DNA of 42,692 nt from positions 1 to 42,692 of the IMG/VR virus record IMGVR_UViG_3300047551_001346; one strand, written 5' to 3'. The DNA is from a virus. The translations under genes were made by a program, and so were the position numbers. Positions within the stretch are counted from its first letter, which is position 1. The number at the start of each line of letters is the position of its first letter. The notes under the pieces were generated by a model that was not told the origin of the DNA, did no database searches, and saw nothing but the letters and a program-made list of their open reading frames with translations. Shown piece after piece: positions 11,748 through 42,075 of the stretch.

Positions 11748-12668
11748 ATGGCTACAGCAGACACAATCAACTTTGACGCCAACGGCGTATTAATTACCGA
11801 CAGTTTATTCAACGGTAATGCAGGGTCCGGAACCGGACATATTGCTTATGATCCAACAGAAACACTAGGCAATATTTCTGCGCCCGAACTAGATACAGTA
11901 AACAGCAAACGCACTGAAATTACCGATTACATTAGACTAAGATTGGCAGACGGTATTGTAGATGTAGAATTGGATAAAGAACACTACGATATGGCTATAA
12001 AGCAAGCTCTAATTAAATATCGCCAACGTGCTGCTAACAGTCAAGAAGAATCCTATGCATTCTTAAAACTAGAGCCCGAAACACAAGAATACATTTTGCC
12101 CAATGAAGTAATGGAAGTAAGAGCTGCTTACAGACGAGGCATTGGATCAGTAACTGGTACCACAGCCAGCCAATTTGAACCTTTTAGTTCTGGGTATCTT
12201 AACACTTATATGTTGGTGGCAGGCCGTGTAGGAGGCCTGTTAAGCTACGAACTATTTGTTGATTACCAAAAAATGTCCATGAAAATGTTTGGTGGTTATT
12301 TGAATTTTACATTCAACAAAACCAGTAAAAAGCTAACATTGATCAGAAAAATTCCTTTTGCCGGAGCCAATCAAAATCCAAGAGAAATGGAAGATGTGTT
12401 GTTGCATATCTATAACTACAAACCAGATTCAATGTTGTTAAACGATTATCAAGCGTTTCCGTGGATTCAAGAATATGCATACAGTTTTGCCAAACGTATT
12501 CTAGGCGAAGCTAGAGAAAAGTTTGCTACTATTGCTGGTCCACAAGGTGGTACGCAATTGAATGGGTCAAGCTTAAAATCTGAAGCGGTGGCTGAAATGA
12601 CTGAACTAGAACAGGCACTAAGAGATTATGTAGATGGATCGTATCCTTTAACTTGGGTAATAGGTTAA
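11748..12668 (+). CDS. 13: Neck protein gp13
   Basis: The 306-residue length matches T4 gp13 (309). The opening NFDANGVLITDSLFNG followed later by ITDYIRLRLADGIVDVELDKEHYDMAIKQALIKYR has the layout seen in cyanophage-type gp13: a short leader, a helix, a 'V-x-VEL-x-x-x-x-x-D-x-A-I/L-x-x-AL' segment, then a strand 'QEYILPNEVMEVRAAYRRG'. gp13 forms the neck ring with gp14 after DNA packaging. It is preceded by its own late promoter and coupled through TAATG to the next small gene. Its partner gp14 is on the other strand 1.6 kb away, an uncommon split of a usually adjacent pair. Confidence 0.7.
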   Translation: MATADTINFDANGVLITDSLFNGNAGSGTGHIAYDPTETLGNISAPELDTVNSKRTEITDYIRLRLADGIVDVELDKEHYDMAIKQALIKYRQRAANSQEESYAFLKLEPETQEYILPNEVMEVRAAYRRGIGSVTGTTASQFEPFSSGYLNTYMLVAGRVGGLLSYELFVDYQKMSMKMFGGYLNFTFNKTSKKLTLIRKIPFAGANQNPREMEDVLLHIYNYKPDSMLLNDYQAFPWIQEYAYSFAKRILGEAREKFATIAGPQGGTQLNGSSLKSEAVAEMTELEQALRDYVDGSYPLTWVIG

Positions 12669-13042
12669 TGAAAATCAAGGACATTATATCAGAAAGCCGC
12701 GGCGAACTCAAACGTCGTCAAAGATTTGCAATGCGTGGACTAAACAAGTTCACTGATGGTAAAAAGTGGAACAGTGATTATACACTTTATAGATTAGGGT
12801 TGGCTCTAGCTAGCACCGATGGTAAAACCATGCCCGAAGTTGATGAAGAATCCTGGGTAGGCAAATGGAAACTAACAGCTCCTTATAGTAAAGAAGAACA
12901 GGATATGCTGCACTTGGCCTACAAGGCAGTAGATGCTGAACATGAAGACATGAATGACGGCGATATGCGCAGTCAAGAAGGAGCGACTATTAACAGAACT
13001 AGTCCTGTAGCAGGAAGAAAAAAGAACAAATACGGCGTTTGA
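12668..13042 (+). CDS. Small protein with capsid-targeting-like leader
   Basis: I place the start at the ATG overlapping the gp13 stop (TAATG), giving 124 residues. The protein opens MKIKDIISE then SRGELKRRQ, resembling the T4 capsid-targeting leader MKTYQEFIAE that the prohead protease gp21 cuts after (L/I)-x-E. The rest is a compact charged domain with LNKFTDGKKWNSDYTLYRLG, a W-V-G-K-W motif and a helical segment 'PYSKEEQDMLHLAYKAV', ending in a basic GRKKNKYGV tail. No enzymatic motif was recognised. A role as an internal head protein is inferred from the leader and the link to gp13. Confidence 0.62.
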   Translation: MKIKDIISESRGELKRRQRFAMRGLNKFTDGKKWNSDYTLYRLGLALASTDGKTMPEVDEESWVGKWKLTAPYSKEEQDMLHLAYKAVDAEHEDMNDGDMRSQEGATINRTSPVAGRKKNKYGV

Positions 13043-18179: not shown

Positions 18180-19889
18180 ATGCCAAATATATTTGATGGG
18201 TTTTTAAAACAAGTGCTGCGTGGAGATCAAATCAAAGATCGTCAGCATGCTGCACGCCTATTTGTTGATAACAACTTTAGATTAGCACCCAAATCAGATT
18301 GGATATTTCATGTATTCTTTGATTTAGATCCACAGCTTTCTCGAATCAAAGATAGTATGAAATTAGTTGAACATGGCATGTTAGTTAAGGCAGTGGATTT
18401 ACCAAAATTCAGTGTTCAAGCCAAAACCTTGAACGAATATAATAGACCTAACGTAGTACAGACAAAAATAACATACAATGACATCAATATTACGTTTCAT
18501 GATGATCAGGCCAATGTTGTTAGAGGTTTATGGTACGACTATCTGACTTATTATTACAGAGATCTTGACATTGGTTATTCTAGTTCATCTGGTATCGTAA
18601 ATCCTGTTCATTACGCTCCTTCGTTATACAACGACTCCCAAAGAGGTTTGTTAAACAGATTTGGATACAGTCCGCGCTCATATGATAGTCAAAATGAACA
18701 ACAATACATAAAATCTATTAGAGTTTACAGTTTACATCAAAAAAGATTTAGTGAATATACACTTGTAAATCCTACCATTGTGGGATTTCAACACGGAACA
18801 CACAATACCGGTAGTGGCACAGGAATGGAATGTAGCATGTCTGTGAACTATGAAACTGTGCTGTATGCAAGTGGATTCGTTACCAAAAACACTGTAAAAG
18901 GTTTTGCAGACTTACACTATGATAAGTCGCCTAGTCCTCTTACACCAGCTGGCGGAGGCACTAACAGCATATTAGGACCTGGCGGTATATTAAATGCAGT
19001 AGATGACATCGTTAGAGATGGATCAGACAGAAATTTTGGTGCTGCTGCATTTACAGCATTAAGAGCCTTTAATACTAACAAAGATGTTAATCTGTCAGGC
19101 CTGGCAAAAGGCGAATTGACTACTGCGGTCACTGACATGATCAGAGGAAAAGATCCAAGGGATAGATTTTTTATTCCCACAGCTGGATCTTTAACTTCGC
19201 AAAATTTTCCAGGACTACAAAATTCTTCTGGACCACTAGCAATGGCGCCAGGAATTGCTACCAGTAATGGTGGTAGTATAAATTTGCCTGCCATTGGTAG
19301 TGGAACCTTATTGCCCAGTGTAGTAAACATGGCAGGAGTAGCAGGAGTTTCTGCAGCTACCGTAGCTGGCGTAAACACTGGTGCATTTATCAGTCCAAGT
19401 ACTGGCCAAAATTTAGCAAATAACATCAAAGGAGTTGTTACAGGAGCTGGTGAAAAAATGACCGGAGGCTCACTGAATCAAGTATATAATGTTAGTAAAC
19501 AAGGAGATGTTACCAGTTCTCAAGCTCAACCGTCATATAACTTTTTGGCAGCCGCTGTAAAACAACAACAACAAAGTTTAAGATCATCTGTAAATTCAAT
19601 TTCTGGATCAAGTGGTATCCCGTTAACAGGCATGCCGCAAGGTATGAACTCTTTAGCAGCCGGGGCAACAAATTTAGGATCTGCTTTTGTGTCTGGTACA
19701 GGAACTTTGTTACCGACGACTTCAAACAACCCGTTAAGTCGAACTCCATATGCAGCAACCTTTGTGCCTGCATCAGATTCAATTGCTTCTAGAGAAGTTA
19801 AGAATTTTATTAACGAAACCAATCTTGCTACATTATCCCCACTACCTGCCTACGCAGGCACATCAACACCACCGGCACCACAACAATGA
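18180..19889 (+). CDS. Tube-fold baseplate protein (gp48/gp54-like)
   Basis: The first 250 residues look like a tail-tube-fold domain: SDWIFHVFFDLDP, VKAVDLPKFSVQAKTLNEYNRP, ITYNDINITFHDDQANVVRGLWYDYLTYYYRD, IKSIRVYSLHQKRFSEYTLVNPTIVGF and ECSMSVNYETVLYASG. This matches the order in T4 gp54 and gp48, which start tube assembly on the baseplate ('ISFRMDSE...W', then 'FTGCIPISVS', then 'FDVTFAYRVM'). Residues after about 260 are a low-complexity Gly/Ser/Thr/Pro tail. It lies right after the tube gene. I cannot choose between gp48 and gp54. Only a weak GGA precedes the ATG, and the late promoter core is five bases away. The next gene overlaps it by ATGA. Confidence 0.6.
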   Translation: MPNIFDGFLKQVLRGDQIKDRQHAARLFVDNNFRLAPKSDWIFHVFFDLDPQLSRIKDSMKLVEHGMLVKAVDLPKFSVQAKTLNEYNRPNVVQTKITYNDINITFHDDQANVVRGLWYDYLTYYYRDLDIGYSSSSGIVNPVHYAPSLYNDSQRGLLNRFGYSPRSYDSQNEQQYIKSIRVYSLHQKRFSEYTLVNPTIVGFQHGTHNTGSGTGMECSMSVNYETVLYASGFVTKNTVKGFADLHYDKSPSPLTPAGGGTNSILGPGGILNAVDDIVRDGSDRNFGAAAFTALRAFNTNKDVNLSGLAKGELTTAVTDMIRGKDPRDRFFIPTAGSLTSQNFPGLQNSSGPLAMAPGIATSNGGSINLPAIGSGTLLPSVVNMAGVAGVSAATVAGVNTGAFISPSTGQNLANNIKGVVTGAGEKMTGGSLNQVYNVSKQGDVTSSQAQPSYNFLAAAVKQQQQSLRSSVNSISGSSGIPLTGMPQGMNSLAAGATNLGSAFVSGTGTLLPTTSNNPLSRTPYAATFVPASDSIASREVKNFINETNLATLSPLPAYAGTSTPPAPQQ

Positions 19890-20908: not shown

Positions 20909-21403
20909 ATGACAAAAAAATTATCCGAACTTTTTGATCTTCCGGATCTAGAATCCACAGCCGAAGTTGGTAGCAACGAAGCACTGCGGACCATTGCTGA
21001 AAACAAAGAAGTTATTGCAAAGGTAGATGACGCCCTTGACAAGATTGATATAGCATTACCAACTGTACGCGATCTAGAAGCCAGCGATCAGGAAATGGAT
21101 GAACTAGCCAATTTAGCCAAAGACAAATTTGAAGATCTCATGGAACTTGGGATGAATATGGATCCTAGATTTGGCGGCGTGGTATTTCAAACAGCCGGAA
21201 CGTTACTAGGTCATGCTATCACGGCTAAAACAGCAAAGATGGACAAGAAACTACGCATGGTACAGCTACAGCTACAAAAAGCCAGGCTGGATCATCAAAA
21301 AAACAAAGATATTCCTGAAGAACGACCTCTAGATGGTCAAGGCATAGTGCTTGATCGTAACGCACTGCTAGAACAGATTCTTCAAAAGAACAAAAACACA
21401 TAA
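20909..21403 (+). CDS. 16: Terminase small subunit gp16
   Basis: At 164 residues it has the same length as T4 gp16. An acidic N-terminus (ELFDLPDLESTAEV) resembles LLDISDLPGIDG of T4. A long helical central part carries 'DPRFGGVVFQTAGTLLGHAITAKTAKMDKKLRMVQLQLQ', corresponding to the T4 segment '[29 protein letters not shown]' that forms the coiled-coil ring core. The C-terminus is flexible and charged. gp16 recognises viral DNA and stimulates the gp17 motor. The gene is well separated from terL (29504), with the leader-bearing genes between, unlike T4 where 16 and 17 adjoin. The start is at leaderless distance from a late promoter core. Confidence 0.75.
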   Translation: MTKKLSELFDLPDLESTAEVGSNEALRTIAENKEVIAKVDDALDKIDIALPTVRDLEASDQEMDELANLAKDKFEDLMELGMNMDPRFGGVVFQTAGTLLGHAITAKTAKMDKKLRMVQLQLQKARLDHQKNKDIPEERPLDGQGIVLDRNALLEQILQKNKNT

Positions 21404-21407
21404 ATAC
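21401..21407 (+). promoter_or_regulatory. Late promoter core (TAAATAC) overlapping gp16 stop
   Basis: CATAAATAC includes the TAA stop of gp16. The predicted start near 21412 gives a 15-base leader with AGAGGAT before the ATG at 21427. It would drive the whole leader-bearing gene run. Confidence 0.62.
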
Positions 21408-21426: not shown

Positions 21427-22050
21427 ATGAAAAGTCTTCATGCTTATATTGCAGAAAGAAATACCACATACGATTTTCGCATAAAAGTTGCAAAACGAAA
21501 CCCCAGCGAAATCATGGAAGAAATTAAGAATGCGCTAAATGCCTACGAATTAGTTAGCATTTCTAAGCCTAAGAGTTTGCCAATTCAAGAGCACAGAGAA
21601 TTTCCAAAATGGGGTCCTTGTGAGTGCTGGCAATTTGAAGCTGAATTAGCCTATCCTGTAACTACCCCACAGATCTTACAATTACTAAAAACGCGAGCCG
21701 GTCTAATTTCCGAGTCGGTTTATGTGTATGGTAAAGACGAAGCTGATCAAAATGATTCATTTGAAGCATACGGCAAAGATCATACCGGCAGTTTGTTATT
21801 AGATTCGGAACTTAAAGATGTTCCCGGCGGTCAAGACTTGGTAGGCGACCGGCGTAAAGATAACATGCTTAAAGAATTAGAAAAGCAAAGTCCAAAAATG
21901 GTTGCATTGGAATCAAATCCTGAATTAACTTCCACTCGTGCTGGTGAAAGAACTAAGCCGGCATCAACAACCAATCAGCTACCACAAGGAACAAAAAGTC
22001 CAGTGGGTAGTCAACAAAACAAATTACCCCCCGTTAAAGGAAAACGATAA
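21427..22050 (+). CDS. Putative internal head protein with cleavable leader
   Basis: This 207-residue protein opens MKSLHAYIAE then RNTTYDF, very close to the T4 capsid-targeting leader MKTYQEFIAE, with a gp21-type (L/I)-x-E site after residue 10. The first 110 residues form a compact alpha/beta domain (FRIKVAKRNPSEIMEEIKNAL...WGPCECWQFEAELAYPVT...LLKTRAGLISESVYVYG) like a ferredoxin-type fold. The rest is charged and disordered (SPKMVALESNPE...GKRR-like end). No enzyme motif. It is the first of a coupled set of leader-bearing genes and overlaps the next by TAATG. Confidence 0.65.
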   Translation: MKSLHAYIAERNTTYDFRIKVAKRNPSEIMEEIKNALNAYELVSISKPKSLPIQEHREFPKWGPCECWQFEAELAYPVTTPQILQLLKTRAGLISESVYVYGKDEADQNDSFEAYGKDHTGSLLLDSELKDVPGGQDLVGDRRKDNMLKELEKQSPKMVALESNPELTSTRAGERTKPASTTNQLPQGTKSPVGSQQNKLPPVKGKR

Positions 22051-23144
22051 TGAGCAACAATATCTACGACATCATAAAAAAGATTAACAAGCTTGAAAAT
22101 AATGTACAGACTCTGAAAGAAAGTAAGAGTATGGATAAAAAGAAAGAAGATAAAAAAGATGAAAGCAAGAAGAAAGACAAGGCTGATAAAGGCGCGATTG
22201 CTGAAGCAGTTGCGCGAGTTGAAAAGCAATTAAATGAAAAATATAACGGCTTCAAAAAAATGCGAGAAAGTCAAGTAGAAGAAAGTGGTCTACAAGCATA
22301 CTTAGGTAAAAAGAAGTATGGCGAAACTGGAATGAAAGCATTACAGAAGGCCGGTCGTGAAGGTGCTAGCAAAGAGAAAATGGCCATGATCCGTGCCAAG
22401 CATGACAAGATGGATGAAGCTGTAGATCAAGAAGGACCAGCAGATCTATTGGCTGCGGTTGAACAAGAAATCAATAACCCAGGGCGAAGTATTGATAACC
22501 TAATAGATGTCTTGAACGCAACTTTTGGTAGCAATAGATCACCTGAGTTTAAAAAGGCCCGTGCAGTCATTGGCAAGTATATTGACTTGGTAGACAACGC
22601 TGCGATGGGCAGCGAACAAGATGGTATCGCGCCAATGAGAGGTGGCAATATTGCTCGTCATATCCAACAATATGACCTTACTGATTATCTACAACATGCT
22701 GCTGCTATGTTGGATAAAGCAGTTAAAGGTCCAATAGACGAAGGCAGTTATAACGAAGAAATGCTTTCGCACAAGCAAAAAAGTTTTGCGGCACTAGCGG
22801 AGCCCAAAGACAAAATTACCTACGCAGATAAAATTGCCGGTGCCAAGAAAAAACAAAAAGACGAAGGCAACGAATTTAGTGGAAAAAGACAGGATGCTAT
22901 TGATGCCGGTGAGACCAGCTTTGAGGTTGACGGTAAAACTTATCCTGTTAAAGAAGGTTTTCCTACCGTATCAGATGCTGAAAAGCGCATGAGAGAAAAA
23001 GAAGGCAAAACGTCACATGGTAAAAAAACCACTACCGGCACTGGAGTTAAACACGAACGTGATTATGATGCTGTAGAAAAAGGTGCAGATGTTGATACAA
23101 GACCAAAAGGTCGTGGGCGTCCTAAAAAAGATAGATTTGCATAA
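22050..23144 (+). CDS. Lys-rich coiled-coil protein with C-terminal AT-hook
   Basis: The 364-residue protein begins with a coiled coil (IYDIIKKINKLENNVQTL), then a very Lys/Glu/Asp-rich stretch (residues 28-48). Next comes a conserved-looking patch 'LQAYLGKKKYGETGMKALQKAGREGASKEKMAMIRAKHDKMDEA' (about residues 78-122) that recurs in proteins of T4-like aquatic phages. A helical domain near 130-230 follows, then a basic tail ending RPKGRGRPKKDRF, whose GRGRP core is an AT-hook. DNA binding inside the head is plausible. Several (L/I)-x-E sites could be gp21 cuts, but the N-terminus lacks the classic short leader. Coupled to both neighbours by TAATG. Confidence 0.62.
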   Translation: MSNNIYDIIKKINKLENNVQTLKESKSMDKKKEDKKDESKKKDKADKGAIAEAVARVEKQLNEKYNGFKKMRESQVEESGLQAYLGKKKYGETGMKALQKAGREGASKEKMAMIRAKHDKMDEAVDQEGPADLLAAVEQEINNPGRSIDNLIDVLNATFGSNRSPEFKKARAVIGKYIDLVDNAAMGSEQDGIAPMRGGNIARHIQQYDLTDYLQHAAAMLDKAVKGPIDEGSYNEEMLSHKQKSFAALAEPKDKITYADKIAGAKKKQKDEGNEFSGKRQDAIDAGETSFEVDGKTYPVKEGFPTVSDAEKRMREKEGKTSHGKKTTTGTGVKHERDYDAVEKGADVDTRPKGRGRPKKDRFA

Positions 23145-24952
23145 TGAAAATTAAAGAAATCATTGATGAAGGTAAATCAGGCCTTGTTGGGAAAGGCCTG
23201 TCATGGTTAGGTAGTAAACTTACTGGTGCTGCTCCTGCTGCACCTGCTGCTGTTCAACAAGCTGCACCTGCAGTTGTACGTCCTAGCAATATTACAAAAC
23301 AACAGTGGAAGCAGATGACTCCGCAACAAAGGCAAGCAGTGACTGGACAACCTGCACCTACAGCACCTACAGCACCTACAGCACCTACGCCGGCACCTGC
23401 ATCTAGTTCAAAAGCAGACGAAATACAAGCGGCCAAAGATAAATTAGAATTAAGAAAACTTAAAGCGGAACTTGATACTATTAAAGGGCCCGGTATAGCA
23501 ACACAGGCCGCAGGTGCAGCACTAAAAAATCCTTTAACAACTGCTGCTACTGGAACCATGGCATATCATCTTGCTGGCGAGGAAGATCCTTTGTCAGCAC
23601 AAGGTGTAGGTAGTGCAGCTAGAAAAACAGTGGGCACTGCTGCAAATGTAGTCAAAGGATTTGTAGGATCAGGTGGCACCAGTGAACCATCTTCAGCGGC
23701 TGCTGACACCCCTGCCAATGATGTAGACTCACCACAAGCGGCCAAACCATCAGATTCCGCCGGAGAACCTTCATCGCAGGACCAAGACGATACTGATGAC
23801 AGCACTGATACACCAACCCCTAGCAACTACATTGATCAAATCAGACAAGGACGAGACGAACGTTTTGGTCAATGGGGTAAAGAAGCCAACGAAAGCGTAA
23901 AAAAAAAGATCAAATTAGACGAAGTTGATGCAACGCAGCAGGCCTTTATGGATGCTATGAAAAGTGCCGAGAGTGGCGGCCGTAACATAAAAAACGTAGC
24001 TGGTAGTTCGGCATATGGCCACTATCAATTTTTAAAATCTACAGCCGAGCGTATGGCTCGTGATCCAAAAAATCGTAATACTCCAATCTATGGTAAGTCA
24101 TGGGAAGAATACAAACGTGATCCTAAGCTACAGCAGGAGTTCATGAATGTGGCCACAAAAGACTATACTGATATATTCCAGAAAAATCAAGTGCCTGTAA
24201 CAGGAGGAACATTATACATGGCACATCACTTTGGTCCAGATATGGCAGTTAAAATGCACAATGCCGGACCAAAGGCTAAAATGTCCGACTTTTATCCTGA
24301 GTATGTCACAAAGAAAAATCCAAAAACTGGTCAACCTGAAAAAGTATTGAATCCAGTGTATGTTCAAAATCCAGCACTGAAGCCCAATCAAAGTGTTCAA
24401 TACACACATGATCGATTGGATACTATGCTAGCCAAGAGGGACAAAACAAATACACTAGCTTCTCTAGATAAAAAAAATCTCTGGACTGGTACAGGAACTG
24501 CTACTGTAGCAACAGCTGGCACCACTGCTACGCAAGGAGCCAAACCTGCCGATGATGAAAAGCCACAAACACTAGCACAAAAACTAGACAAAATAGTACA
24601 ACCAGAGCCTAGGTTTTACAAGCGTGGTGAATTGAGCATTGATCAATACATGAAGAAGTCACAGGCAGAATTAGATAGACTCAGAGCAGCATCACAACGC
24701 TTGCCTGGCTCACAACTAACTGCTGTGTCACCTGCTGCTTCGGCTGGTACTGTCACAACACCAGACTCCTCTGATACAACAACTACACCAGCTTCGGCAG
24801 GTACAGTTAAAAATGAGCCACAAGCACCGGAAGATTCTGATAATGATAAATCTCAAAATCAAAAATCGTCGGTAGCTGAGAACAGAACACAACCTAATCT
24901 AAAATCGGTAAATAAAGAAATACAAGACATAATCAGATTGGCCAGATTTTAA
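23144..24952 (+). CDS. Leader-bearing protein with lysozyme-fold domain
   Basis: The 602-residue protein opens MKIKEIIDE then GKSG, a T4-like capsid-targeting leader. An Ala/Pro/Thr-rich, low-complexity region (residues 25-250; TAPTAPTAPT repeats, GAALKNPLTTAATG) follows. Residues about 262-400 look like a lytic transglycosylase/lysozyme domain: MKSAESGG with candidate catalytic E276, then SSAYGHYQFLKSTAERMA, corresponding to the 'ESGG...S-x-A-x-G-x-x-Q' signature, and LYMAHHFGPDMAVKMHNAGP. The C-terminal 200 residues are again low complexity, ending KEIQDIIRLARF. A peptidoglycan hydrolase carried inside the head would recall T7 gp16 or N4-type injected enzymes. Activity is inferred. Confidence 0.66.
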   Translation: MKIKEIIDEGKSGLVGKGLSWLGSKLTGAAPAAPAAVQQAAPAVVRPSNITKQQWKQMTPQQRQAVTGQPAPTAPTAPTAPTPAPASSSKADEIQAAKDKLELRKLKAELDTIKGPGIATQAAGAALKNPLTTAATGTMAYHLAGEEDPLSAQGVGSAARKTVGTAANVVKGFVGSGGTSEPSSAAADTPANDVDSPQAAKPSDSAGEPSSQDQDDTDDSTDTPTPSNYIDQIRQGRDERFGQWGKEANESVKKKIKLDEVDATQQAFMDAMKSAESGGRNIKNVAGSSAYGHYQFLKSTAERMARDPKNRNTPIYGKSWEEYKRDPKLQQEFMNVATKDYTDIFQKNQVPVTGGTLYMAHHFGPDMAVKMHNAGPKAKMSDFYPEYVTKKNPKTGQPEKVLNPVYVQNPALKPNQSVQYTHDRLDTMLAKRDKTNTLASLDKKNLWTGTGTATVATAGTTATQGAKPADDEKPQTLAQKLDKIVQPEPRFYKRGELSIDQYMKKSQAELDRLRAASQRLPGSQLTAVSPAASAGTVTTPDSSDTTTTPASAGTVKNEPQAPEDSDNDKSQNQKSSVAENRTQPNLKSVNKEIQDIIRLARF

Positions 24953-24953
24953 A

Positions 24954-25367
24954 ATGAAAATTAGCGAGGTTATTACAGAAAATTCTAATCAGACCGTTCA
25001 AGACAAAACTCTTGACAAATTGCAAACGGCAGATGATTTTGTCAGAAGCGTCGCTAATGCCGCAACTTTTGGATTAGCCGATAAACTAGCAGCTAAGATG
25101 AGTGGCAAAGATTATAAACAAGAATTAGAAAAACAAACGCAACAGACTCAGGCAGCAGCACAAAGAAGCCCCACAGCTACCACCGTTGGTGATGTTGTAG
25201 GCACAGTAGGTAGTGTACCATTTTTAGGTGGAGCAGCAGTAGGAGCTAAAGCATTAGCCCGCACAGCTCCGCGATTGGCACAAAAAACTATGCCAAAAAT
25301 TGCAGCAACCACAGCAGGCGGCATGGCAGCAGATGTTGCAGCCGGTGAATTAACCAAGGAAAAATAA
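24954..25367 (+). CDS. Small leader-bearing protein with Gly/Ala-rich end
   Basis: The 137-residue protein opens MKISEVITE then NSNQ, again a capsid-targeting-like leader with an (L/I)-x-E site. It continues with DDFVRSVANAATFGLADKLAAKMSG and a helix QELEKQTQQTQAAAQRSPTATTVGDVVGTVGSV, a motif order found in phage and prophage internal proteins (TFGLAD...RSP-A-T-x-x-G-E/D). The final 60 residues are a hydrophobic Gly/Ala stretch (FLGGAAVGAKALA, AATTAGGMAADVAAGE) that could insert into or cross a membrane, as seen for some ejected proteins. Starts one base after the previous stop. Confidence 0.6.
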   Translation: MKISEVITENSNQTVQDKTLDKLQTADDFVRSVANAATFGLADKLAAKMSGKDYKQELEKQTQQTQAAAQRSPTATTVGDVVGTVGSVPFLGGAAVGAKALARTAPRLAQKTMPKIAATTAGGMAADVAAGELTKEK

Positions 25368-25396
25368 ACTGATTACATCAGTGTTAAGGAAATAAA

Positions 25397-27259
25397 ATGA
25401 ATCCAAATTTAATTAGAAAATACAGCGATATATTAGGTGAACAAGCAGCCACACCACAAACACCTAGTCAATCTCAAATTGCTACCGGAATGGCAAAACA
25501 AGGGCAATTAGTTCAAGCACGAACTCCTAAACCTGCTGCACCTAAACCTGCTTCGACATCAAAAAATATTCAAGCAGCCGGAGCAGCGTTTCAGTCACAA
25601 CAACCTGCTCAAACAACACCAGGTGGCGGCCCTAGTAATGCGGCACAACTAGCTGCAAAGTTAGGACAAACTCCTACTGCTACTGCGGCTGCTCCCGCAG
25701 CGCCAGCTGCGCCAAGTTTAGATCAACAAAAAGCAGCAGCAATTGGTGGAGGTATGGCTGCTGGTACAGCAGCTGGTTTTGCTGGACAAGATCAAACTCG
25801 AGATCAATATGACCCTGCCACCGATCCAACATTAGCAGCAGGTAAAGCAGAATTAGCCAGACCTGAACCTGTTAATGTAGCAGCGGCACCAAAAATGGGT
25901 GGATATGCGCAATCGGCTACCGGAGCCGAAGGACAAGGCGGTACACAAGCAGCTATGCCTTCACCGCAAAATACAGTCACTTCCACTTCAGGTAGCGACG
26001 TTGTAAGTAGCAGTGGAAAAGCAATTACCAGTGGTGCAGGGATAAAAAAAGATGCCTTCGGAACTCCACAATTTGAAGAAGAGTTAGAAGAAGAAACAGA
26101 CGAATCCTTGGAAGAACAACTAGAGGAAGCATTTAATGAAATGCTGAGATTAAGCGGTATTCAACTAAATGAAAAAGCAGTAAGTAAGCAACAACAAAAA
26201 TTTATGGGCATGGTACATGCCATGCAAAAAGGTGAAAAGGTCAAAGGCGCTAGTCCAGAGCTTAAAAAAGCGGCTAAAGGGATGGGTAAAAAAGACGCAA
26301 AAGATTTTGCTAGTACAAAACACAAAGGTTTACCACAAAAGGTATCTGAAAGCGTTATGTTAGAAGCAGGAAGTAACTTGGAGCACATTGTTACTCGTTT
26401 TAAACACGAAACAAAGAGATTTTTAGCTGGTGACGATCTTGATAGTGATTTATACGAAGCACTATATGATTATTATGCTGATGCGGGCGAAATGCCGTAC
26501 GGCGTAGCAAAAGCACGCGAAGGTGATCCATACCAGTGGGTAAGTGACCATTTTGCTGATGAACTAGCACTCATGGGCTATGACCGTCAATTTCAAGAAA
26601 CTGTTATGCCTGTTGTAGACAATCAACTCAGTGAACTAGCTAGATTAGCCGGACTCAGTGAAAGCCGTGTAGATGAGTGCGGTGACATGGGCATGGATCA
26701 ACGTGATTCCATGAACGTTAGCACAAATATGAGCAGCGATGGTACCAAGAGTGTGACCATTAGTGCGCAAGGTGATCAAGCAGAAGCTCTAATTCAAATG
26801 CTAAAATTAGCTGGCATGGGCCATATGGGACACAGTCACGATGACAAGCCAGTAATGGTTGTTAGTAAAGACGATGATGAAATGATGGACGAGGAATACA
26901 AGAATAGTCCAAACAACAAAGAATATCATTCCGTTGCCAGTATTCTTAGCCAAGGCAATGATCTAAACAAGCCTAAAAACCAAGATCCAGGCACAGCCAA
27001 TCGTGCTGCAAATCCAATGGCAGAAGAAATTGTTGATGAAGAATTACAAGGGTTATTAGACAGTGTGTTAATAAAAGCAGACGAAGGTTCTATTAAAGGA
27101 GGCGATCGTCCAGGAGATTTAACTGGGACATGGTCAGCTGATCCATCAGAAAAAGGAAAGCCAAACGTACCACCTCCAATTCCAATGGATCCTGTAAGTC
27201 CAGCGGCTCCTAAGGCACCATCATCTCCTGCTATTCCTAAACCTGGAATTAAAAAATGA
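25397..27259 (+). CDS. Leader-bearing protein with DUF3008-like segment
   Basis: The protein opens MNPNLIRKYSDILGE then QAAT, an extended leader with an L-G-E site shared with the 27798 gene. Residues 20-215 are Ala/Pro/Gln/Thr-rich. An acidic stretch (FEEELEEETDESLEEQLEEAF) leads to residues about 260-318, KQQQKFMGMVHAMQKGE...ASPELKKAAKGM...DFASTKHKGLP, which fits DUF3008. Then comes 'GEMPYGVAKAREGDPYQWVSDHF' (about residues 370-395), a motif common in T4-like aquatic phages. Short repeats of the type LxxLAG-x-x-E (MLRLSGIQLNE, ELARLAGLSES, MLKLAGMG) are spread through it. Likely an internal or scaffold-associated head protein; function unknown. ATGA overlap with the next gene. Confidence 0.62.
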   Translation: MNPNLIRKYSDILGEQAATPQTPSQSQIATGMAKQGQLVQARTPKPAAPKPASTSKNIQAAGAAFQSQQPAQTTPGGGPSNAAQLAAKLGQTPTATAAAPAAPAAPSLDQQKAAAIGGGMAAGTAAGFAGQDQTRDQYDPATDPTLAAGKAELARPEPVNVAAAPKMGGYAQSATGAEGQGGTQAAMPSPQNTVTSTSGSDVVSSSGKAITSGAGIKKDAFGTPQFEEELEEETDESLEEQLEEAFNEMLRLSGIQLNEKAVSKQQQKFMGMVHAMQKGEKVKGASPELKKAAKGMGKKDAKDFASTKHKGLPQKVSESVMLEAGSNLEHIVTRFKHETKRFLAGDDLDSDLYEALYDYYADAGEMPYGVAKAREGDPYQWVSDHFADELALMGYDRQFQETVMPVVDNQLSELARLAGLSESRVDECGDMGMDQRDSMNVSTNMSSDGTKSVTISAQGDQAEALIQMLKLAGMGHMGHSHDDKPVMVVSKDDDEMMDEEYKNSPNNKEYHSVASILSQGNDLNKPKNQDPGTANRAANPMAEEIVDEELQGLLDSVLIKADEGSIKGGDRPGDLTGTWSADPSEKGKPNVPPPIPMDPVSPAAPKAPSSPAIPKPGIKK

Positions 27260-27798
27260 AATCACTAAGAGAATATATTGAACAAGTAGAAGATTCATAT
27301 GAGCATCCTACCATTGGCGATGTATTTGAAATGGAAATTGCTCGTGATGAAACATTAATTGAAAGTTATGTTGTTGATGTGTTAGAGGATGGTATTGTAA
27401 TCGAAGCAGATGACACAATGATGAGAATTTTAACGCATGTGGGATATCTCAATGAGAATTCTAACATGCCCCTTGCAGAAGATTCTACCAGCCCGATCAA
27501 TGGCAAAAAAGATGCTCGTAGCCACAATTTTGAAACATCTACTGATAACGATTTAGAAGAAGCCAAGTATCGTGGGCGTACGGTTCCTTTAGGTAAGAAA
27601 ATGGCTGGTGATGTAAAGAAATCAAAAGTGTATGTAAGAAAACCAAACGGCAATATCGTAAAAGTAGAATTTGGCGATCCTAATATGCGTATCAAAAAGT
27701 CAAATCCCAAGCGTCGTAAGAGTTTTAGAGCTAGACACAATTGCGATAATCCAGGGCCAAGATGGAAGGCGCGATATTGGTCATGTAGGTCTTGGTAA
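27256..27798 (+). CDS. Conserved T4-like protein with C-terminal basic domain
   Basis: The 180-residue protein opens MKSLREYIEQVED, resembling the other leaders though without a strict (L/I)-x-E at that point; LIE at residues 35-37 would be the first clear site. A small beta domain near residues 20-70 (GDVFEMEIAR...VDVLEDGIVIEADD) follows. The C-terminal 75 residues, from KYRGRTVPLGKKMAGDVKKS through KVEFGDPNMRIKKSNPKRRK to RARHNCDNPGPRWKARYWSC, form a basic, Cys-containing module that I recall as strongly conserved in unnamed proteins of T4-like aquatic phages. A nucleic-acid or prohead role is possible. Coupled on both sides (ATGA, TAATG). Confidence 0.66.
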   Translation: MKSLREYIEQVEDSYEHPTIGDVFEMEIARDETLIESYVVDVLEDGIVIEADDTMMRILTHVGYLNENSNMPLAEDSTSPINGKKDARSHNFETSTDNDLEEAKYRGRTVPLGKKMAGDVKKSKVYVRKPNGNIVKVEFGDPNMRIKKSNPKRRKSFRARHNCDNPGPRWKARYWSCRSW

Positions 27799-28094
27799 TG
27801 ACCGACCCAAGATTCTTTAGGCGATATTTAGATATTCTTGGTGAACAAATTGTTACCGCACCGCCCGCTAGTTCTATCAAACACATTGTAGGAGCTAACC
27901 CAGATAAAGATGACTACGGTGAATATAACGAGCCGCCTCCAGAAGGCACACCGTTTACTAAACCAGATGTAAATCCTTTTGATAATGTAGCAAACACAGA
28001 TCCAAGACTTAAAATTACCAAAGGACCGGCTGCATTACAGGGTACACAAAAACCACAGGATGTTGCCAAAATATCAGCATTCAAACTACACTAA
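27798..28094 (+). CDS. Small leader-bearing protein
   Basis: I start this 98-residue protein at the ATG overlapping the previous stop (TAATG). It opens MTDPRFFRRYLDILGE then QIVT, nearly the same leader as the 25397 gene (IRKYSDILGE). The remainder is Pro-rich and probably disordered (YNEPPPEGTPFTKPDVNPFDN). It is the last gene of the leader-bearing run. Its simple body suggests a small packaged or scaffold peptide precursor. Confidence 0.55.
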   Translation: MTDPRFFRRYLDILGEQIVTAPPASSIKHIVGANPDKDDYGEYNEPPPEGTPFTKPDVNPFDNVANTDPRLKITKGPAALQGTQKPQDVAKISAFKLH

Positions 28095-28105
28095 AAGGAA
28101 AATCA

Positions 28106-28540
28106 ATGAAAAAATTATTCGCAGTTTTATTATTAGTACCAGGTTTAGCATTTGCACAAAAAACACCACAAGGTGCCACATATGATGCACAAGTTGTAAG
28201 AGTAAACGATGGTGACACAGTTGTTATTGCAGCACCATTTTTACCAGCACCACTTAAGCCAGAATTGGCAGTTCGTGTGTTTGGTGTTGATACTCCAGAA
28301 AAAGGTCATCGTGCTCAATGTGCATCAGAAGATCAGCGGGGACAAGCGGCCACAGCGTTTACTAAAAATGCGGTTGCTAAATCCGTAAAGCGCCAAGTAA
28401 TTTTATATGGGTGGGACAAGTTTGGTGGTCGTGTTCTAGGTGATATGATCCTAGATGGACAAAGCCTACGTACAATGTTAATTCAAAATGGATTCGCGAG
28501 AGAATACTACGGCGAAGCTAAACAATCGTGGTGCAACTAG
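28106..28540 (+). CDS. Secreted staphylococcal-nuclease-like thermonuclease
   Basis: A clear Sec signal peptide (MKKLFAVLLLVPGLAFA then QKTPQ, cut after the AFA motif) precedes an SNase domain. Catalytic and calcium residues equivalent to the staphylococcal enzyme are present: D37 in DGDT, R57, D62 and E65 in RVFGVDTPE, and R109 in KFGGR. The end REYYGEAKQSWCN is typical of the family. The mature enzyme of about 127 residues would act in the periplasm or outside the cell, cutting DNA or RNA. An AAAAGGA ribosome site is present. It follows the leader-bearing genes but has a different targeting signal. Possible roles are nucleotide scavenging or destroying incoming DNA. Confidence 0.9.
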   Translation: MKKLFAVLLLVPGLAFAQKTPQGATYDAQVVRVNDGDTVVIAAPFLPAPLKPELAVRVFGVDTPEKGHRAQCASEDQRGQAATAFTKNAVAKSVKRQVILYGWDKFGGRVLGDMILDGQSLRTMLIQNGFAREYYGEAKQSWCN

Positions 28541-28760: not shown

Positions 28761-28965
28761 TCCTATTGCAGAATTACGAGTATTAGCTGGTATTAACAAT
28801 CGTGCCGTGATGCAAGAATATAAAGGTTTTGCTGGCAGTAATATTTCAGTGACTGGAAATGAAAAAGGCGAACTCATGCGAAAGCATGATATTCGTCCTG
28901 GCACTGAGGAATGGTTCAAACTTTGGTTTTCAAAACCCTGGCTCACAGGAGAACGGCCAATTTAA
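28753..28965 (+). CDS. Small conserved phage protein
   Basis: The 70-residue protein starts MNDPIAELRVLAGINNRAVM and ends with RPGTEEWFKLWFSKPWLTG. The LxxLAG motif recalls the repeats in the 25397 protein, and the 'G-S-N-I-S...K-G-E-L-M-R...I-x-P-G-T-x-x-W-F-K-L-W-F' layout is one I recall from short proteins of T4-like aquatic phages. Function unknown. It overlaps the previous small gene by eight bases and the convergent HNH gene by four. Confidence 0.6.
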   Translation: MNDPIAELRVLAGINNRAVMQEYKGFAGSNISVTGNEKGELMRKHDIRPGTEEWFKLWFSKPWLTGERPI

Positions 28966-29492
28966 GCGGCATCAGCATCTCTCCCTAGATACTTGTTCCA
29001 TTTTAAATCTTTAACTCTAAATGGACTGTGTTTCCAGGCCGCTGCCAAAGCATAGTAATCAGGTCTATATGGTTTTCTTATTGGTTTAACATTGCTTTTA
29101 TCAGCTTTGTGCCAGTTACACGATTTACAACTTGTAACGCAATTAGTCCATTCTGTACGACCACCTTTACTTATTGGTACCACGTGATCAATTGTTAATT
29201 GATCAAAATCAAATGTATCAAGACAGTATTGACATTGGTAAAGATCACGTAAATACATATTGTAACGTGTAAAATTAACTTTTCTTTTAAAGTTAAAATA
29301 CTCTAGTGTGATAGCAACACTAGGAACATTCAGTGCAAGTTTTTCACTATGCACTATCCAATCCGGGTATGTTTCAATAACTTGAATTCTGCCCAGATAC
29401 ATAAGTTTGATAGCATGTTGCCAGTGAATTACACTCAGCGGTAATACGCTAATTGGCGTGTAATCTTTATTCAAAAGTAAAGTATGACTCAT
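28962..29492 (-). CDS. HNH endonuclease
   Basis: I choose the ATG at 29492 (MSHTLLLNKDYTPISVLPLS), the typical start of this HNH family, giving 176 residues. The HNH core is CQYC...LTIDHVVPISKGGRTEW-TN...SCKSCNWHKADK, with CxxC pairs binding zinc and the IDHV-x-P-x-S-x-G-G-x-x-x-x-x-N motif holding the catalytic His. Such enzymes occur in bacteria and in phages near terminase genes, where HNH nucleases can assist packaging or spread as homing enzymes. It is divergent from terL with only 11 bases between the start codons, and a sigma70-like promoter for it lies inside terL. Confidence 0.87.
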   Translation of the reverse strand: MSHTLLLNKDYTPISVLPLSVIHWQHAIKLMYLGRIQVIETYPDWIVHSEKLALNVPSVAITLEYFNFKRKVNFTRYNMYLRDLYQCQYCLDTFDFDQLTIDHVVPISKGGRTEWTNCVTSCKSCNWHKADKSNVKPIRKPYRPDYYALAAAWKHSPFRVKDLKWNKYLGRDADAA

Positions 29493-29503
29493 AAGTAATT
29501 TGT

Positions 29504-31069
29504 ATGAAAAACAATGATACAACAAGTATTGTAAAAAGTCCTTATCAAAAGGTCAATTTTTCTGAAGATCAAATAGTAGAATTTATGAAGTGTGCGGACC
29601 CGGATACTGGTCCGGAGTATTTCATGAGTAACTATTTCTACATTCAACACCCGGTAAAAGGAAAAATGTTGTATCAACCTTTTGAGTATCAACAAAGACT
29701 CATTGGTACTTATCATCAAAATAGATTCAGTATAAGTCTTATGCCTAGACAAACCGGTAAGACTACCAGTGCAGCAGGATATCTGCTATGGTTTGCAATG
29801 TTTAGACCAGATAGCACCATTTTAATTGCAGCTCACAAATATTCTGGCGCTCAGGAGATCATGCAGCGGGTAAGGTATGCATATGAACTATGTCCAGACT
29901 GGATTAGAGCAGGGGTTACTAGTTATAACAAAGGTTCAATTGATTTTGAAAATGGATCACGTATTGTTAGCCAAACAACTACCGAAACAACTGGCCGAGG
30001 TATGAGTATTACACTATTATACTGTGACGAATTCGCTTTTGTGCGACCCACAATAGCCAAAGAATTCTGGACAAGTATTTCGCCTACTTTAAGCACAGGT
30101 GGTAAAGCCATTATAACTTCAACTCCAAACTCAGACGAAGATCAGTTTGCGTTTATTTGGAAACAAGCTAACAAATGCATAGATGAGTATGGTAATCCAA
30201 CGGTACTAGGAATTAATGGTTTTCGAGCGTATCAAGCCAATTGGTGGGAACATCCAGATCGTGACGATAAATGGAAATCTGAAGAAATTGGTCGTATAGG
30301 CGAAGAACGTTTTAGACGTGAACACGGCTGCGAATTTTTGATTTATGATGAAACTTTAGTGAACAGCATAACACTAGCAGAATTACAAAGTCGCGAACCA
30401 ATTGAATTACAAGGACAAGTGCGTTGGTTTCAAAAACCACAACGTAATAAAACTTATGTAATTGGGCTAGATCCCAGCCTTGGTACAGGAGGTGACTATG
30501 CTGCTATTCAAGTTTATGAATTGCCAACCATGCTTCAAGTTGCAGAGTGGCAACATAATAAAACTCCTATTCAACGCCAAGTGTCTATTTTAAAAGAGAT
30601 ATGTGAATATATCTATGATGTCATTGGAACACAAAATGATATCTACTACTCGGTGGAAAATAACACATTAGGTGAAGCAGCATTAGTTGTTATTGCAGAA
30701 TTTGGCGAAGAAAATATCAGGGGAACTTTCCTAAGTCAGCCAATAAAAACTGGACAAGCAAGAATACACAGAAAAGGGTTTACTACCACAAACAAGACAA
30801 AGTTGGCGGTGTGTGCCAAATTGAAAAATCTTGTAGAAAATCGTAAAATGACCATTTGTAGTAAAAACTTGATAAGCGAATTGAAAACTTTTGTAGCATT
30901 TGGCGTTAGTTTTGCTGCCAAAACAGGCGAAACTGATGATTTAGTGTCTGCAACTTTGCTTACACTAAGAATGGTGCAAGCTTTACAAAGTTATGATGCA
31001 GAATTAGACGAAAAGTTACGAGATAATGTGGACGACTACTTGGCTCCTATGCCATTCATTGTCATTTAA
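29504..31069 (+). CDS. 17: Terminase large subunit gp17
   Basis: The 521-residue protein has the packaging ATPase motifs: Walker A PRQTGKTT (residues 81-88), Walker B LLYCDEFAF (D175, E176), and a C-motif-like IITSTPN. The C-terminal RNase-H-fold nuclease has GLDPSLGTGGDYAA (D323) and a final GETDDLVSATLL with acidic residues. This is the T4 gp17 motor that cuts concatemeric DNA and pumps it into the prohead. The length is slightly below T4 gp17 (610), mainly because the N- and C-terminal extensions are shorter. No good ribosome site precedes the ATG. Confidence 0.96.
   Translation: MKNNDTTSIVKSPYQKVNFSEDQIVEFMKCADPDTGPEYFMSNYFYIQHPVKGKMLYQPFEYQQRLIGTYHQNRFSISLMPRQTGKTTSAAGYLLWFAMFRPDSTILIAAHKYSGAQEIMQRVRYAYELCPDWIRAGVTSYNKGSIDFENGSRIVSQTTTETTGRGMSITLLYCDEFAFVRPTIAKEFWTSISPTLSTGGKAIITSTPNSDEDQFAFIWKQANKCIDEYGNPTVLGINGFRAYQANWWEHPDRDDKWKSEEIGRIGEERFRREHGCEFLIYDETLVNSITLAELQSREPIELQGQVRWFQKPQRNKTYVIGLDPSLGTGGDYAAIQVYELPTMLQVAEWQHNKTPIQRQVSILKEICEYIYDVIGTQNDIYYSVENNTLGEAALVVIAEFGEENIRGTFLSQPIKTGQARIHRKGFTTTNKTKLAVCAKLKNLVENRKMTICSKNLISELKTFVAFGVSFAAKTGETDDLVSATLLTLRMVQALQSYDAELDEKLRDNVDDYLAPMPFIVI
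29528..29556 (-). promoter_or_regulatory. Reverse sigma70-like promoter for the HNH gene
   Basis: On the reverse strand TTGACC (29556-29551) and TACAAT (29533-29528) are 17 bases apart. The predicted start near 29521 lies 29 bases before the HNH ATG, so this promoter sits within the first codons of terL. Confidence 0.45.
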
Positions 31070-33657: not shown

Positions 33658-34266
33658 ATGTTATCGCAACTAGATAACATCATTTTTCCAGATCGTTGTG
33701 ATGTACTAGAAATAGTTCCATCACAACGATATGTCTATCCCATATACAAAAATGGTAGTAGCAGTTTGTATAATTCGGGATTTAGATTACTGGAGCATGA
33801 TGAAATAAAAAACATTCCTGTTATTGACATTTATGTTCGCGATCCTTACGACAGATTTGTATCTGGTGTTAACACTTTTCTAAAACAAAATGCAAATTTA
33901 AATAGAGAGACAGCGATACATTTTATCACAAACTATCTATTCTTGAACAGGCACTTTTGCCCACAATTTTTTTGGCTGGTAAATTTACGAAGATTTACTG
34001 ATGCAAAAGTTCGTATCAATTCAATCGATTCACTGTCAGAAGTTACTGATTTAAAATTTAACAAAAATCAAAGCTTGCTTTCAGATGAAACTTTTGCAAA
34101 TGAAAAAATACATTTTTACTTGTCAATTGATAAAGCTTTAACTCAAGATTTACTAGGAAAAACTGTACCATTTAAGTTAATTGTACAAACAATTCGCTAT
34201 CGTTATTCTGACGTTTACAAAGAAGTAATACAAAGGAGTTTGAATTTATGCAGTGTCCTAGATTAA
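33658..34266 (+). CDS. Sulfotransferase-like protein
   Basis: This 202-residue protein has both PAPS-binding elements of carbohydrate sulfotransferases: a 5'-phosphosulfate loop YKNGSSSLY (residues 30-38), with K31 and Ser residues as in 'P-K-x-G-(S/T)-(S/T)-S/L', and a 3'-phosphate loop VRDPYDRFVSGV (residues 60-71), with R61 and S69 as in 'RDP-x-x-R-x-x-S'. The rest is helical and short, close to the minimum for the fold. These enzymes move sulfate from PAPS to sugar hydroxyls. It follows gp32 by nine bases and overlaps the first radical SAM gene by 19 bases, so it belongs to the modification cluster. Substrate unknown. Confidence 0.62.
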   Translation: MLSQLDNIIFPDRCDVLEIVPSQRYVYPIYKNGSSSLYNSGFRLLEHDEIKNIPVIDIYVRDPYDRFVSGVNTFLKQNANLNRETAIHFITNYLFLNRHFCPQFFWLVNLRRFTDAKVRINSIDSLSEVTDLKFNKNQSLLSDETFANEKIHFYLSIDKALTQDLLGKTVPFKLIVQTIRYRYSDVYKEVIQRSLNLCSVLD

Positions 34267-35195
34267 CTCACTTTGTAAGATTAAACTTCAACGGTACATA
34301 CAGTAGATGCGGTCATATGGTAGATCCGCCGCAATTTGCCTCATTGAGAGACATGGAAGAAAGTGCATGGCTCGATGACGTAAAAACAAAAATGGAACAC
34401 AATATCTGGCCAGACGAATGCGTGAGATGTCGTGACACTGAAAGTGTTGACAAATCCAGTATAAGAATAAATTCAATTGAATTTGATAAAAAACAAAAAA
34501 GATCAGACTATCTCATAATTGGAGGAGTATTAGATAATATTTGTAATAGTGGATGCATCACTTGCAATGAATACTTAAGTACTAAAATTGGTAGTATTAA
34601 ATCAAAAGTATACCCAATTTTTGACAATTATGATAAATTCTGGCAATTGCCTACTGAAAGGGTAGTGCATATAGATATTAACGGAGGCGAACCAAGTGCT
34701 AGTAAAAATTACAAACAAATTTTAAAAAATTTACCTTCCAACGTGCAATCAGTAAGAGTAAATACCAACTGTGCAATGATAATCGATGAATTGCAAGACT
34801 TGATTAATCAAGGCATTAAAGTAACAGTAACAGTCAGTTTAGATGGAATTAATGAAGTTCATGACCAAGTGAGATGGCCCATTAAATGGGATGTGTTTTA
34901 CAAAAATTTATTGCATTATAAGAACATTAAAAATTTAGATTTGAATACATGGACCACAGTAAGTGCCTTAAATATTCACAATTTGGAAACAATATTACAG
35001 TTTGTTGCTGATCATAAATTGGCACATTCTTATGCTTTTTTAAACAGTCCCGATCCCTTAAACGTAAAGTATAAAAACAGTTACACTTTACCATGGGCAC
35101 ATCTATTTCCGAATATTGTTGCCACTGATAAAAATAATCAAGTTGAAGTGGATAAATTTATTCAAAACGAAAACAGTTTACGAGGTATTATATGA
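34248..35195 (+). CDS. Radical SAM protein 1, N-terminal Cys module (twitch type)
   Basis: The 315-residue protein has the radical SAM cluster site C99-x3-C103-x2-C106 (NICNSGCITCN) and the SAM-binding glycine-rich strand INGGEPS. The first 65 residues carry four cysteines, C3, C21, C58 and C61, within the layout 'C...F.G.YSRCGH...F.SL..M..S.WL..VK..M....WP-x-E-C-x-R-C', which matches radical SAM proteins with an N-terminal twitch-type auxiliary cluster domain. Such proteins occur in cyanophages and other marine phages with no known substrate. AAGGAG stands nine bases before the ATG, inside the sulfotransferase gene. The stop overlaps the SDR start (ATGA). Confidence 0.85.
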   Translation: MQCPRLTHFVRLNFNGTYSRCGHMVDPPQFASLRDMEESAWLDDVKTKMEHNIWPDECVRCRDTESVDKSSIRINSIEFDKKQKRSDYLIIGGVLDNICNSGCITCNEYLSTKIGSIKSKVYPIFDNYDKFWQLPTERVVHIDINGGEPSASKNYKQILKNLPSNVQSVRVNTNCAMIIDELQDLINQGIKVTVTVSLDGINEVHDQVRWPIKWDVFYKNLLHYKNIKNLDLNTWTTVSALNIHNLETILQFVADHKLAHSYAFLNSPDPLNVKYKNSYTLPWAHLFPNIVATDKNNQVEVDKFIQNENSLRGII

Positions 35196-40858: not shown

Positions 40859-40874
40859 AGATATTTTAAAACCA

Positions 40875-40880
40875 TAAATA
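40875..40880 (+). promoter_or_regulatory. Late promoter core near leaderless spacing
   Basis: CCATAAATA is followed by TTACATT and the ATG at 40888. The predicted start near 40886 gives a two-base leader. No Shine-Dalgarno sequence is present. Confidence 0.5.
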
Positions 40881-40887: not shown

Positions 40888-42075
40888 ATGCGTAATTTAA
40901 TCAATATTCTAGCAGAGGCTGATGCACCTATTAAAAAAGAAATAGTTGCTCAAGTAAAGCAAACCCACGATATTAACGTTCTTAATAGAGTTTTGAATGT
41001 GTTACGTGCTGGAAATTTAGACGAAAAAATCAGCGCAGTTTTGTCACAAGATGCTGATGCAGCAAACTTTTTAGAAACTGTGGCAGATGTTATATTAAAA
41101 ATTAACGCTCCAATTGAGGAAAAAGATGCCTTCTTAAATCGTTTTCCAAAAGGTATTATTAATACTTCTTTGCTGTTAGATGGCGGTTTACACTCTTATT
41201 TGGATATAGTTAACGGTGACAATTTTGCCCGTACTGTTCTAGCCACGCTAGCTGCACACAGAACATTGATACCTCAGGGCGTTGGTCCTGGGGAAATAGC
41301 TCTTGCGATATTAAGTCCACAAATCAAATGGAGTGGTCGTATAAAAGGAGGCGGCGATATCATTGTTGGAAAAACAGCAATTGAAGTAAAAACAACATTA
41401 GAAAGTGGCGGCCGTTGGGTTAATGCTCGTAAAGCTGATCAGGACATGGCCTCAATTAAAAATGCTATTTTGGATGCTTTTAGACAAATTAATACTAATC
41501 CCCCGGCTATACCTCCAAGATTAAATCCAAACATATGGGTAGATCAAATTAGACCGCGATTGGCACTGGCTGGTAAACCAAATGTTTTAAAACGATGCGT
41601 AGGTATTATGGCAAAGGGATTATTTGCCCATGCCAACACTAGCGATTATGAATCAGCATTATTAAACGGAACTGCGGCTGACATATCGGCAAGTATATTA
41701 AAAACAGGATTTGAAAATTATAAAAACTATTCAAATTTTGACGGTATACTAATGATGAATAACAATTCTGAATCTGTGCAATATTTTACTTCGTATGAAA
41801 GTATGCAAGGTTTAATTAAATCTGATGTTGCCTATATAATGGCTCCGGACTCAGAAGGTATGCCCAAGGTAGATTTAATCGCTGTTGCATCAACCGGGGT
41901 TGATGTAAAAGCATTAAGAAAAGCAGAACGTGCCGCAGCGAAAGCTTCGTCTCAACCTGCAGCAGCACAATCTGTATTAGATCCTGACAACACTAGACTA
42001 CAAGTTACCAGAAAAGGTCGCCAAGCAGAACCACGCGATAAAGATACTACACCTAGACAACGACGCGATAAGTAA
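40888..42075 (+). CDS. Leader-bearing PD-(D/E)XK nuclease-like protein
   Basis: The 395-residue protein opens MRNLINILAE then ADAPIKKE, a T4-like capsid-targeting leader with an L-A-E site after residue 10. The centre carries a PD-(D/E)XK core: E136 in GPGEIALAIL, D157 in GGGDIIVGKT, and E166-V-K168 in AIEVKTT, the spacing seen in restriction-type endonucleases. The N-terminal 120 residues are helical, and the C-terminus is basic and disordered (KALRKAERAAAKASS...RKGRQAEPRDKD...RQRRDK). A nuclease with this leader could be packaged and enter the host with the DNA. Its late promoter core fits virion production. Nuclease activity and packaging are both inferred. Confidence 0.68.
   Translation: MRNLINILAEADAPIKKEIVAQVKQTHDINVLNRVLNVLRAGNLDEKISAVLSQDADAANFLETVADVILKINAPIEEKDAFLNRFPKGIINTSLLLDGGLHSYLDIVNGDNFARTVLATLAAHRTLIPQGVGPGEIALAILSPQIKWSGRIKGGGDIIVGKTAIEVKTTLESGGRWVNARKADQDMASIKNAILDAFRQINTNPPAIPPRLNPNIWVDQIRPRLALAGKPNVLKRCVGIMAKGLFAHANTSDYESALLNGTAADISASILKTGFENYKNYSNFDGILMMNNNSESVQYFTSYESMQGLIKSDVAYIMAPDSEGMPKVDLIAVASTGVDVKALRKAERAAAKASSQPAAAQSVLDPDNTRLQVTRKGRQAEPRDKDTTPRQRRDK

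Follow-up and report, generated by a model that had tools for sequence, protein, structure and literature searches.

Short leaders of the T4 capsid-targeting type on conserved and exchangeable proteins of a giant phage related to PA5oct

What is a row of late genes doing in a giant phage when gene after gene opens with much the same short leader and continues into a different protein? Most of what is established about the capsid targeting sequence comes from T4 and its near relatives, and to our knowledge the head cargo of giant phages is mostly unknown. The window analysed here, 42,692 bases long, spans an entire IMG/VR record and covers part of the genome of a T4-superfamily phage. In it, leaders reminiscent of T4 MKTYQEFIAE cluster between the head closure and large terminase genes (Table 1; genes are called by their start positions). 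The original prediction held that these proteins are coupled in one late operon, packed into the head, cut by gp21 and perhaps injected. Our analysis makes it probable that a giant PA5oct-related phage uses these leaders as capsid targeting sequences of the T4 type, serving packing and cutting and carried in part by standing head proteins and in part by exchangeable cargo.

Table 1. Coordinates of leader genes, promoter boxes and landmark genes in the window
Feature	Position	Strand	Details
Leader gene outside run	12668..13042	+	124 aa; leader MKIKDIISE at 12668-12694
CATAAATA	14123		before sheath gene
Sheath gene	14158
Tube gene	17501
Head closure gene	20463
CATAAATA, T4-type late promoter box	21399..21406	+	20 bp before 21427 start
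Leader gene 1	21427..22050	+	207 aa; leader MKSLHAYIAE at 21427-21456; ferredoxin-like body
Gene in run without canonical leader (MSNNIYDIIKKINKLE...)	22050..23144	+	mosaic, low complexity
Leader gene 2	23144..24952	+	602 aa; leader MKIKEIIDE at 23144-23170
Leader gene 3	24954..25367	+	137 aa; leader MKISEVITE at 24954-24980
Leader gene 4	25397..27259	+	620 aa; leader MNPNLIRKYSDILGE at 25397-25441
Leader-like gene	27256..27798	+	180 aa; MKSLREYIEQ at 27256-27285
Leader gene 5	27798..28094	+	98 aa from ATG; leader MTDPRFFRRYLDILGE at 27798-27845
Large terminase gene	29504
TATAAATA, T4-type late promoter box	32558
RecA-like gene	36875
CATAAATA	40873..40880	+	before 40888 start
Leader gene outside run	40888..42075	+	395 aa; leader MRNLINILAE at 40888-40917
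Basic C-terminal tail of 40888, DPDNTRLQVTRKGRQAEPRDKDTTPRQRRDK	41977..42072	+	common to at least three unrelated bodies with the same leader

The leader register and its genomic setting

The carrier of these leaders is a freshwater-type giant phage of the T4 superfamily, related to Pseudomonas phage PA5oct. Among named phages, the terminases closest to that of the window belong to the Pseudomonas phages PA5oct, Paride and MIJ3 (54%) and to Sinorhizobium phage Phosso (51%), and IMG/VR relatives reach 89%; a DNA-level search of annotated phages with the window found nothing. The 137-kb relative G021 keeps the synteny of the window (terminase 86% and 21427 homologue 76% identical; neighbour genes 20463, 20909, 28106 and 28753 80-90% identical), and the 354-kb genome G018 is more distant. 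A reading of 20909 as the T4 gp16 small terminase was dropped (hhalign probability 0.2%).

All of the leaders quoted in the original prediction, in the run and at 12668 and 40888, were found at their genes. Aligned on the glutamate, seven window genes (12668, 21427, 23144, 24954, 25397, 27798 and 40888) share one register, with hydrophobic residues at -6, -3 and -2, then any residue, and Glu at 0; T4 MKTYQEFIAE has this register (Tyr4, Phe7, Ile8, Glu10), and the proposed likeness to the T4 sequence holds position by position in these seven. The leader-like 27256 does have the opening ascribed to it and retains the targeting positions, but Glu-10 is replaced by Gln, leaving no canonical (L/I)xE site; homologues with the full leader open MKNLRDYIVE, MKTFAQYLTE and, in a close relative, MKSFRDYLTE. 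The last gene of the run, given earlier as starting at 27792 (TTG), more likely begins at ATG 27798, the start used by relatives.

The register was searched for as [LIVFYMW]xx[LIVFYMW][LIVF]xE with Glu at residue 8-17, a pattern whose residue classes were chosen after the leaders and the T4 genetics had been seen; about 0.5-0.8 matches are expected in the window versus 7 observed. The individual expectations were 0.8 from internal density, 0.53 from shuffled N-termini (7 being reached in 0/5000 shuffles) and 0.64 when peptides at internal Met serve as the background (binomial P 3e-6). Of the 12 genes running from 20463 up to the terminase, 5 carry the register (P 1e-6). This concentration recurs across 80 relatives, where 50/142 genes lying between 21427 and the terminase fit the pattern versus 20/885 outside, or in 6/25 versus 5/186 when counted by protein family (P 5e-4); the G002 genome has no excess of leaders. 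T4, taken as a control, gave 14-15 matches versus about 4-6 expected and returned the internal proteins with MKTYQEFIAE (two genes), gp24 and Alt. Separately, a 54-aa reading frame on the minus strand of the T4 record (18966-19130) opens MKTFKEFIKE, a near-perfect capsid targeting sequence.

The placement in a late operon is supported, the run beginning behind a T4-type late promoter box. Five of the six plus-strand copies of ATAAATA in the window are followed by a gene start within about 30 bp, and this motif precedes 29/37 homologues of 21427 versus 103/1157 genes overall.

Conserved carriers and the head protease

In T4, the internal proteins IPI, IPII and IPIII and Alt carry the capsid targeting sequence (Mullaney and Black 1996, reviewed in PMC9026906), in which residues 4 and 7 are needed for targeting and residues 8 and 10 for processing; with Asp at position 10 processing is blocked, but targeting is not (PMC9026906). 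Among 37 homologues of 21427, the leader is conserved at F4 (34/37), Y7 (32/37), L8 (33/37) and E10 (34/37), with residues 5, 6 and 9 free, so that the conserved positions are exactly those used for targeting and processing in T4. The PA5oct and Phosso homologues have lost Glu-10 and retained F4 and Y7, and the PA5oct orthologue, gp282, is a virion protein by mass spectrometry; its presence in the virion without Glu-10 fits a targeting function that is separable from cutting. In the AlphaFold model of 21427, the leader forms a helix (pLDDT 84-93) beside the fold and may remain as part of the body. The ferredoxin-like fold was uninformative as a functional clue, having many unrelated matches (HPPK, ribosomal S6).

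Of about 20 homologues of 12668, most begin with MKIxEIIxE or MRAREFxTE. Both families are widely conserved; 21427 is probably a core head protein rather than accessory cargo, and 12668 looks like one. In the relative L021 (8076-8870), a 27256-type and a 12668-type protein form a single fused reading frame that retains the second leader, MKIRDIISE, internally, as though the two proteins were to be parted by the head protease.

Together with gp282, PA5oct gp333 and gp246 are annotated as virion proteins by ESI-MS/MS; gp333, encoded next to the portal, opens MKINDIITEG and gp246 opens MKIKDILVE. Over PA5oct as a whole, leaders are only weakly associated with detection in the virion: the strict pattern gives 8/93 versus 12/372 (P 0.04), the broad (L/I)xE pattern is not significant (P 0.49), and some motif-bearing virion proteins are not obviously head proteins.

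The search for gp21 succeeded in close relatives, not in the window itself, where no protease, capsid or portal gene lies within the 42.7 kb. A gp21-family (S77) protease is encoded in PA5oct, Phosso, G002, G018 and G021, and in G021 and G018 the protease, 21427 homologues and leader cargo are all present in one genome. Neither the window nor most of the shorter relatives gave a PF03420 match, because these records are fragments. When the capsid-protein cut site is placed by position relative to T4 gp23 (FLTE↓A), an LxE site is present in PA5oct, G002, G018 and G021; the sites seen in related capsid proteins are FLVE↓N, YLKE↓N, MLAE↓N and HLME↓T.

Exchangeable bodies behind fixed leaders

The 23144 protein comprises a Gly/Ala-rich region followed by a transglycosylase-like domain at residues 247-481. 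In the L131 version the leader and flanks are retained and a GH19 domain replaces the transglycosylase-like one; at the same position G021 encodes a protein with lysozyme (endolysin-like) and SGNH-type (GDSL-type) domains, and G018 has a separate 273-aa GH19 protein that opens MFLHDILNE. The predicted function of 23144 is that of a wall hydrolase whose catalytic domain is exchanged between relatives. The L132 relative of 24954 has LysM domains and the leader MKELKDFNNYLNSIIRE, and the 25397 protein is a low-complexity mosaic that includes a DUF3008-like module. Across 22050-27798 and relatives, DUF3008-like, KKKYGETGMKALQKAGREGASKEKM, KYRGRTVPLGKKM...RARHNCDNPGPRWKARYWSC and LxLAG modules are reshuffled among long low-complexity proteins. 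The leader of 27798 recurs in G021 (gene 90323; 17 residues, 88% identical) on an unrelated 143-aa protein, with no further match. A Pfam search gave no family for most leader genes, and weak matches to Ntox14, DUF58 and FMN oxidoreductase fell short of the cut-off and were dismissed as noise; for none of the window leader genes was there a Pfam or PHROG match to the T4 internal-protein families (IPI, IPII, IPIII).

At the 40888 locus, relatives have conserved flanking DNA and a leader of the form MR(N/D)LINI(I)L(T/N)E, which together with the same basic C-terminal tail encloses at least four unrelated bodies. Leader swaps relative to 40888 are present in L127, L128 and L130, and BLASTP of 40888 against L127 or L130 matches the leader and tail with no credible body match. 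Profile comparison at this locus aligns the tail alone for A1-A2, A1-A7 and A6-A7; for A2-A6 a match of low identity was obtained, clear in the tail. In the DNA, 15-24 of the 30 leader nucleotides are identical versus 5-11 of the following 30, which is about chance. Searching 2.9 million viral contigs with the leader alone returned 29 contigs, in which nearly all matches open a reading frame and the bodies include at least four large unrelated ones plus further small ones. The expectation that related phages would carry the same leaders on unrelated bodies is thereby confirmed at this locus and for 27798 in G021.

The 40888 body contains GD-x8-EVK, a nuclease-like signature that is invariant in 8 homologues; a candidate assignment to the PD-(D/E)XK nucleases received no significant fold match, and the motif is our basis for calling this body nuclease-like. 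Bodies B, C and D at the locus have D...(S/E)xK-like strings, which are not established as a motif. In L144 (1664-1864), the leader MRNFINILNE stands on a 67-aa protein with weak similarity, below the Pfam cut-off, to high-potential iron-sulfur proteins.

Directly behind the leader genes, 28106-28540 encodes a protein that is thermonuclease-like by eye and has a Sec-type signal peptide, MKKLFAVLLLVPGLAFA; it is 90% identical in G021 and is possibly a secreted nuclease in the late operon. An HNH-type gene (by eye; 28962-29525, minus strand) lies between the leader run and the terminase. Two CxxxCxxC-type proteins (34248-35195 and 35734-36885) are encoded around the RecA-like gene, and a radical SAM protein by PHROG (38161-39417) near it.

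Packing, cutting and possible delivery

The occurrence of the same tags on quite different proteins in related phages suggests a changeable protein set inside the head. The original prediction of an unusually large internal-protein set with varied bodies is retained in so far as the leaders stay as bodies change, but 21427 and 12668 look like core head proteins. Judged by their sequences, the carriers appear to be a mixed set in which 21427 and 12668 are conserved head proteins, 25397 and 27256 are mosaics, and 23144, 24954, 27798 and 40888 are exchangeable cargo. For the window phage, comparison with T4 and with relatives makes packing of the leader proteins into the head well supported and cutting of the leaders likely; injection and cargo function are speculative.

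Could the leaders be accidental, (L/I)xE being common near the N-terminus of acidic phage proteins and the matches selected by the reader? The broad (L/I)xE pattern alone is indeed frequent (212/824 outside genes), but the four-position register, with a frequency of 1.7% at internal Met, is rare and yet occurs in seven window genes, and the leaders are conserved while the bodies differ; because of this conservation and the leader swaps, we regard chance as refuted and give it next to no weight. It is also improbable that the shared N-termini are an amphipathic helix that stays uncut and serves in tail, portal or membrane binding or in translation and mRNA stability. The PA5oct and Phosso members without Glu-10 and the good confidence with which the 21427 leader helix is predicted would suit such a role, but Glu-10 is among the best conserved residues (34/37) next to a free residue 9, the capsid protein of related genomes also retains an LxE site, and the L021 fusion retains MKIRDIISE inside its chain.

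A further explanation, which we consider unlikely though deserving of more weight than the uncut helix, is that the leaders are prohead-assembly tags only, borne by proteins of the core, scaffold or inner shell that remain inside the head, with nothing injected and with body changes due to drift and mosaicism. This is consistent with the presence of 21427 throughout the group with a conserved body, with 25397 and 22050 being low-complexity mosaics without enzyme domains, and with the finding that the 31091 family, adjoining the terminase, is a virion protein; it is opposed by leaders on GH19, transglycosylase-like and lysozyme/endolysin-like domains and on completely exchanged bodies.

We therefore favour capsid targeting of both standing head proteins and cargo. 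During head assembly, the amphipathic N-terminal helix (hydrophobic at -6 and -3) would bind the prohead core, and whatever body follows the leader would be built into the head. The gp21-family protease would cleave after the Glu of (L/I/F)xE and leave the mature body inside. In this scheme 21427 and 12668 would be standing head components, and the cargo genes 23144, 24954, 27798 and 40888 would exchange their bodies by recombining at the conserved leader on one side and at conserved sequence following the body on the other. The wall hydrolase cargo would probably open peptidoglycan while DNA enters, and nuclease-like cargo would probably act in the new host.

The principle of these leaders is that of the T4 internal proteins, themselves diverse (PMC3012670, PMC12373910). 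As in T4, leaders of 9-16 residues with hydrophobic -6, -3 and -2 and Glu at 0 are conserved before variable bodies, with a gp21-family protease in related genomes and a T4-type late box. Unlike T4, the window phage has more carriers (seven in a 42.7-kb fragment) with mostly larger bodies, for which no similarity to those of T4 internal proteins was found; wall hydrolases that can be exchanged and possible nucleases are among the cargo of its group, one cargo slot has a conserved basic C-terminal tail, and some carriers are conserved head components. The subtype MKIKEIIDE/MKIKDIISE comes closest to the T4 gp24 propeptide MAKINELLRE, as does MKINDIITE of PA5oct gp333, but gp24 differs from the window cargo in being a shell vertex protein. 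The phiKZ-like phage SPN3US has ejection proteins with cleaved propeptides, several of more than 100 residues (PMC5694885). Common to both are a giant phage, head cargo and N-terminal propeptides for protease cutting (here predicted from sequence), but the window leaders span only 9-16 residues. T7 gp16 is an internal virion protein with a transglycosylase domain. The window hydrolase resembles it in predicted function, since it too may travel in the head and act on the wall as DNA enters, but stands behind a T4-type leader in a contractile-tailed phage and has alternative catalytic domains. The novelty lies in the phage group, in how many carriers there are, in the placing behind a leader of wall hydrolases whose catalytic parts are exchanged, and in the leader-plus-tail cassette slot; we found no report of such leaders in this phage group in the open-licence literature.

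A broader reading, offered tentatively, is that a wide group of giant uncultivated T4-like phages may load their heads through a short address tag that works as a general docking point, with rotating bodies recombined behind fixed leaders, packed, trimmed and delivered to the next host as first-strike proteins. The arsenal would then consist of wall hydrolases whose catalytic domains are interchangeable, several unrelated nuclease-like proteins that share a basic tail, and small proteins. The swap boundaries mark sites for attaching reporter proteins in a laboratory phage. The leader register, being searchable in sequence, offers a direct way to list the head-packed and possibly injected proteins of uncultivated giant phages, which are a likely hiding place of defence and counter-defence proteins.
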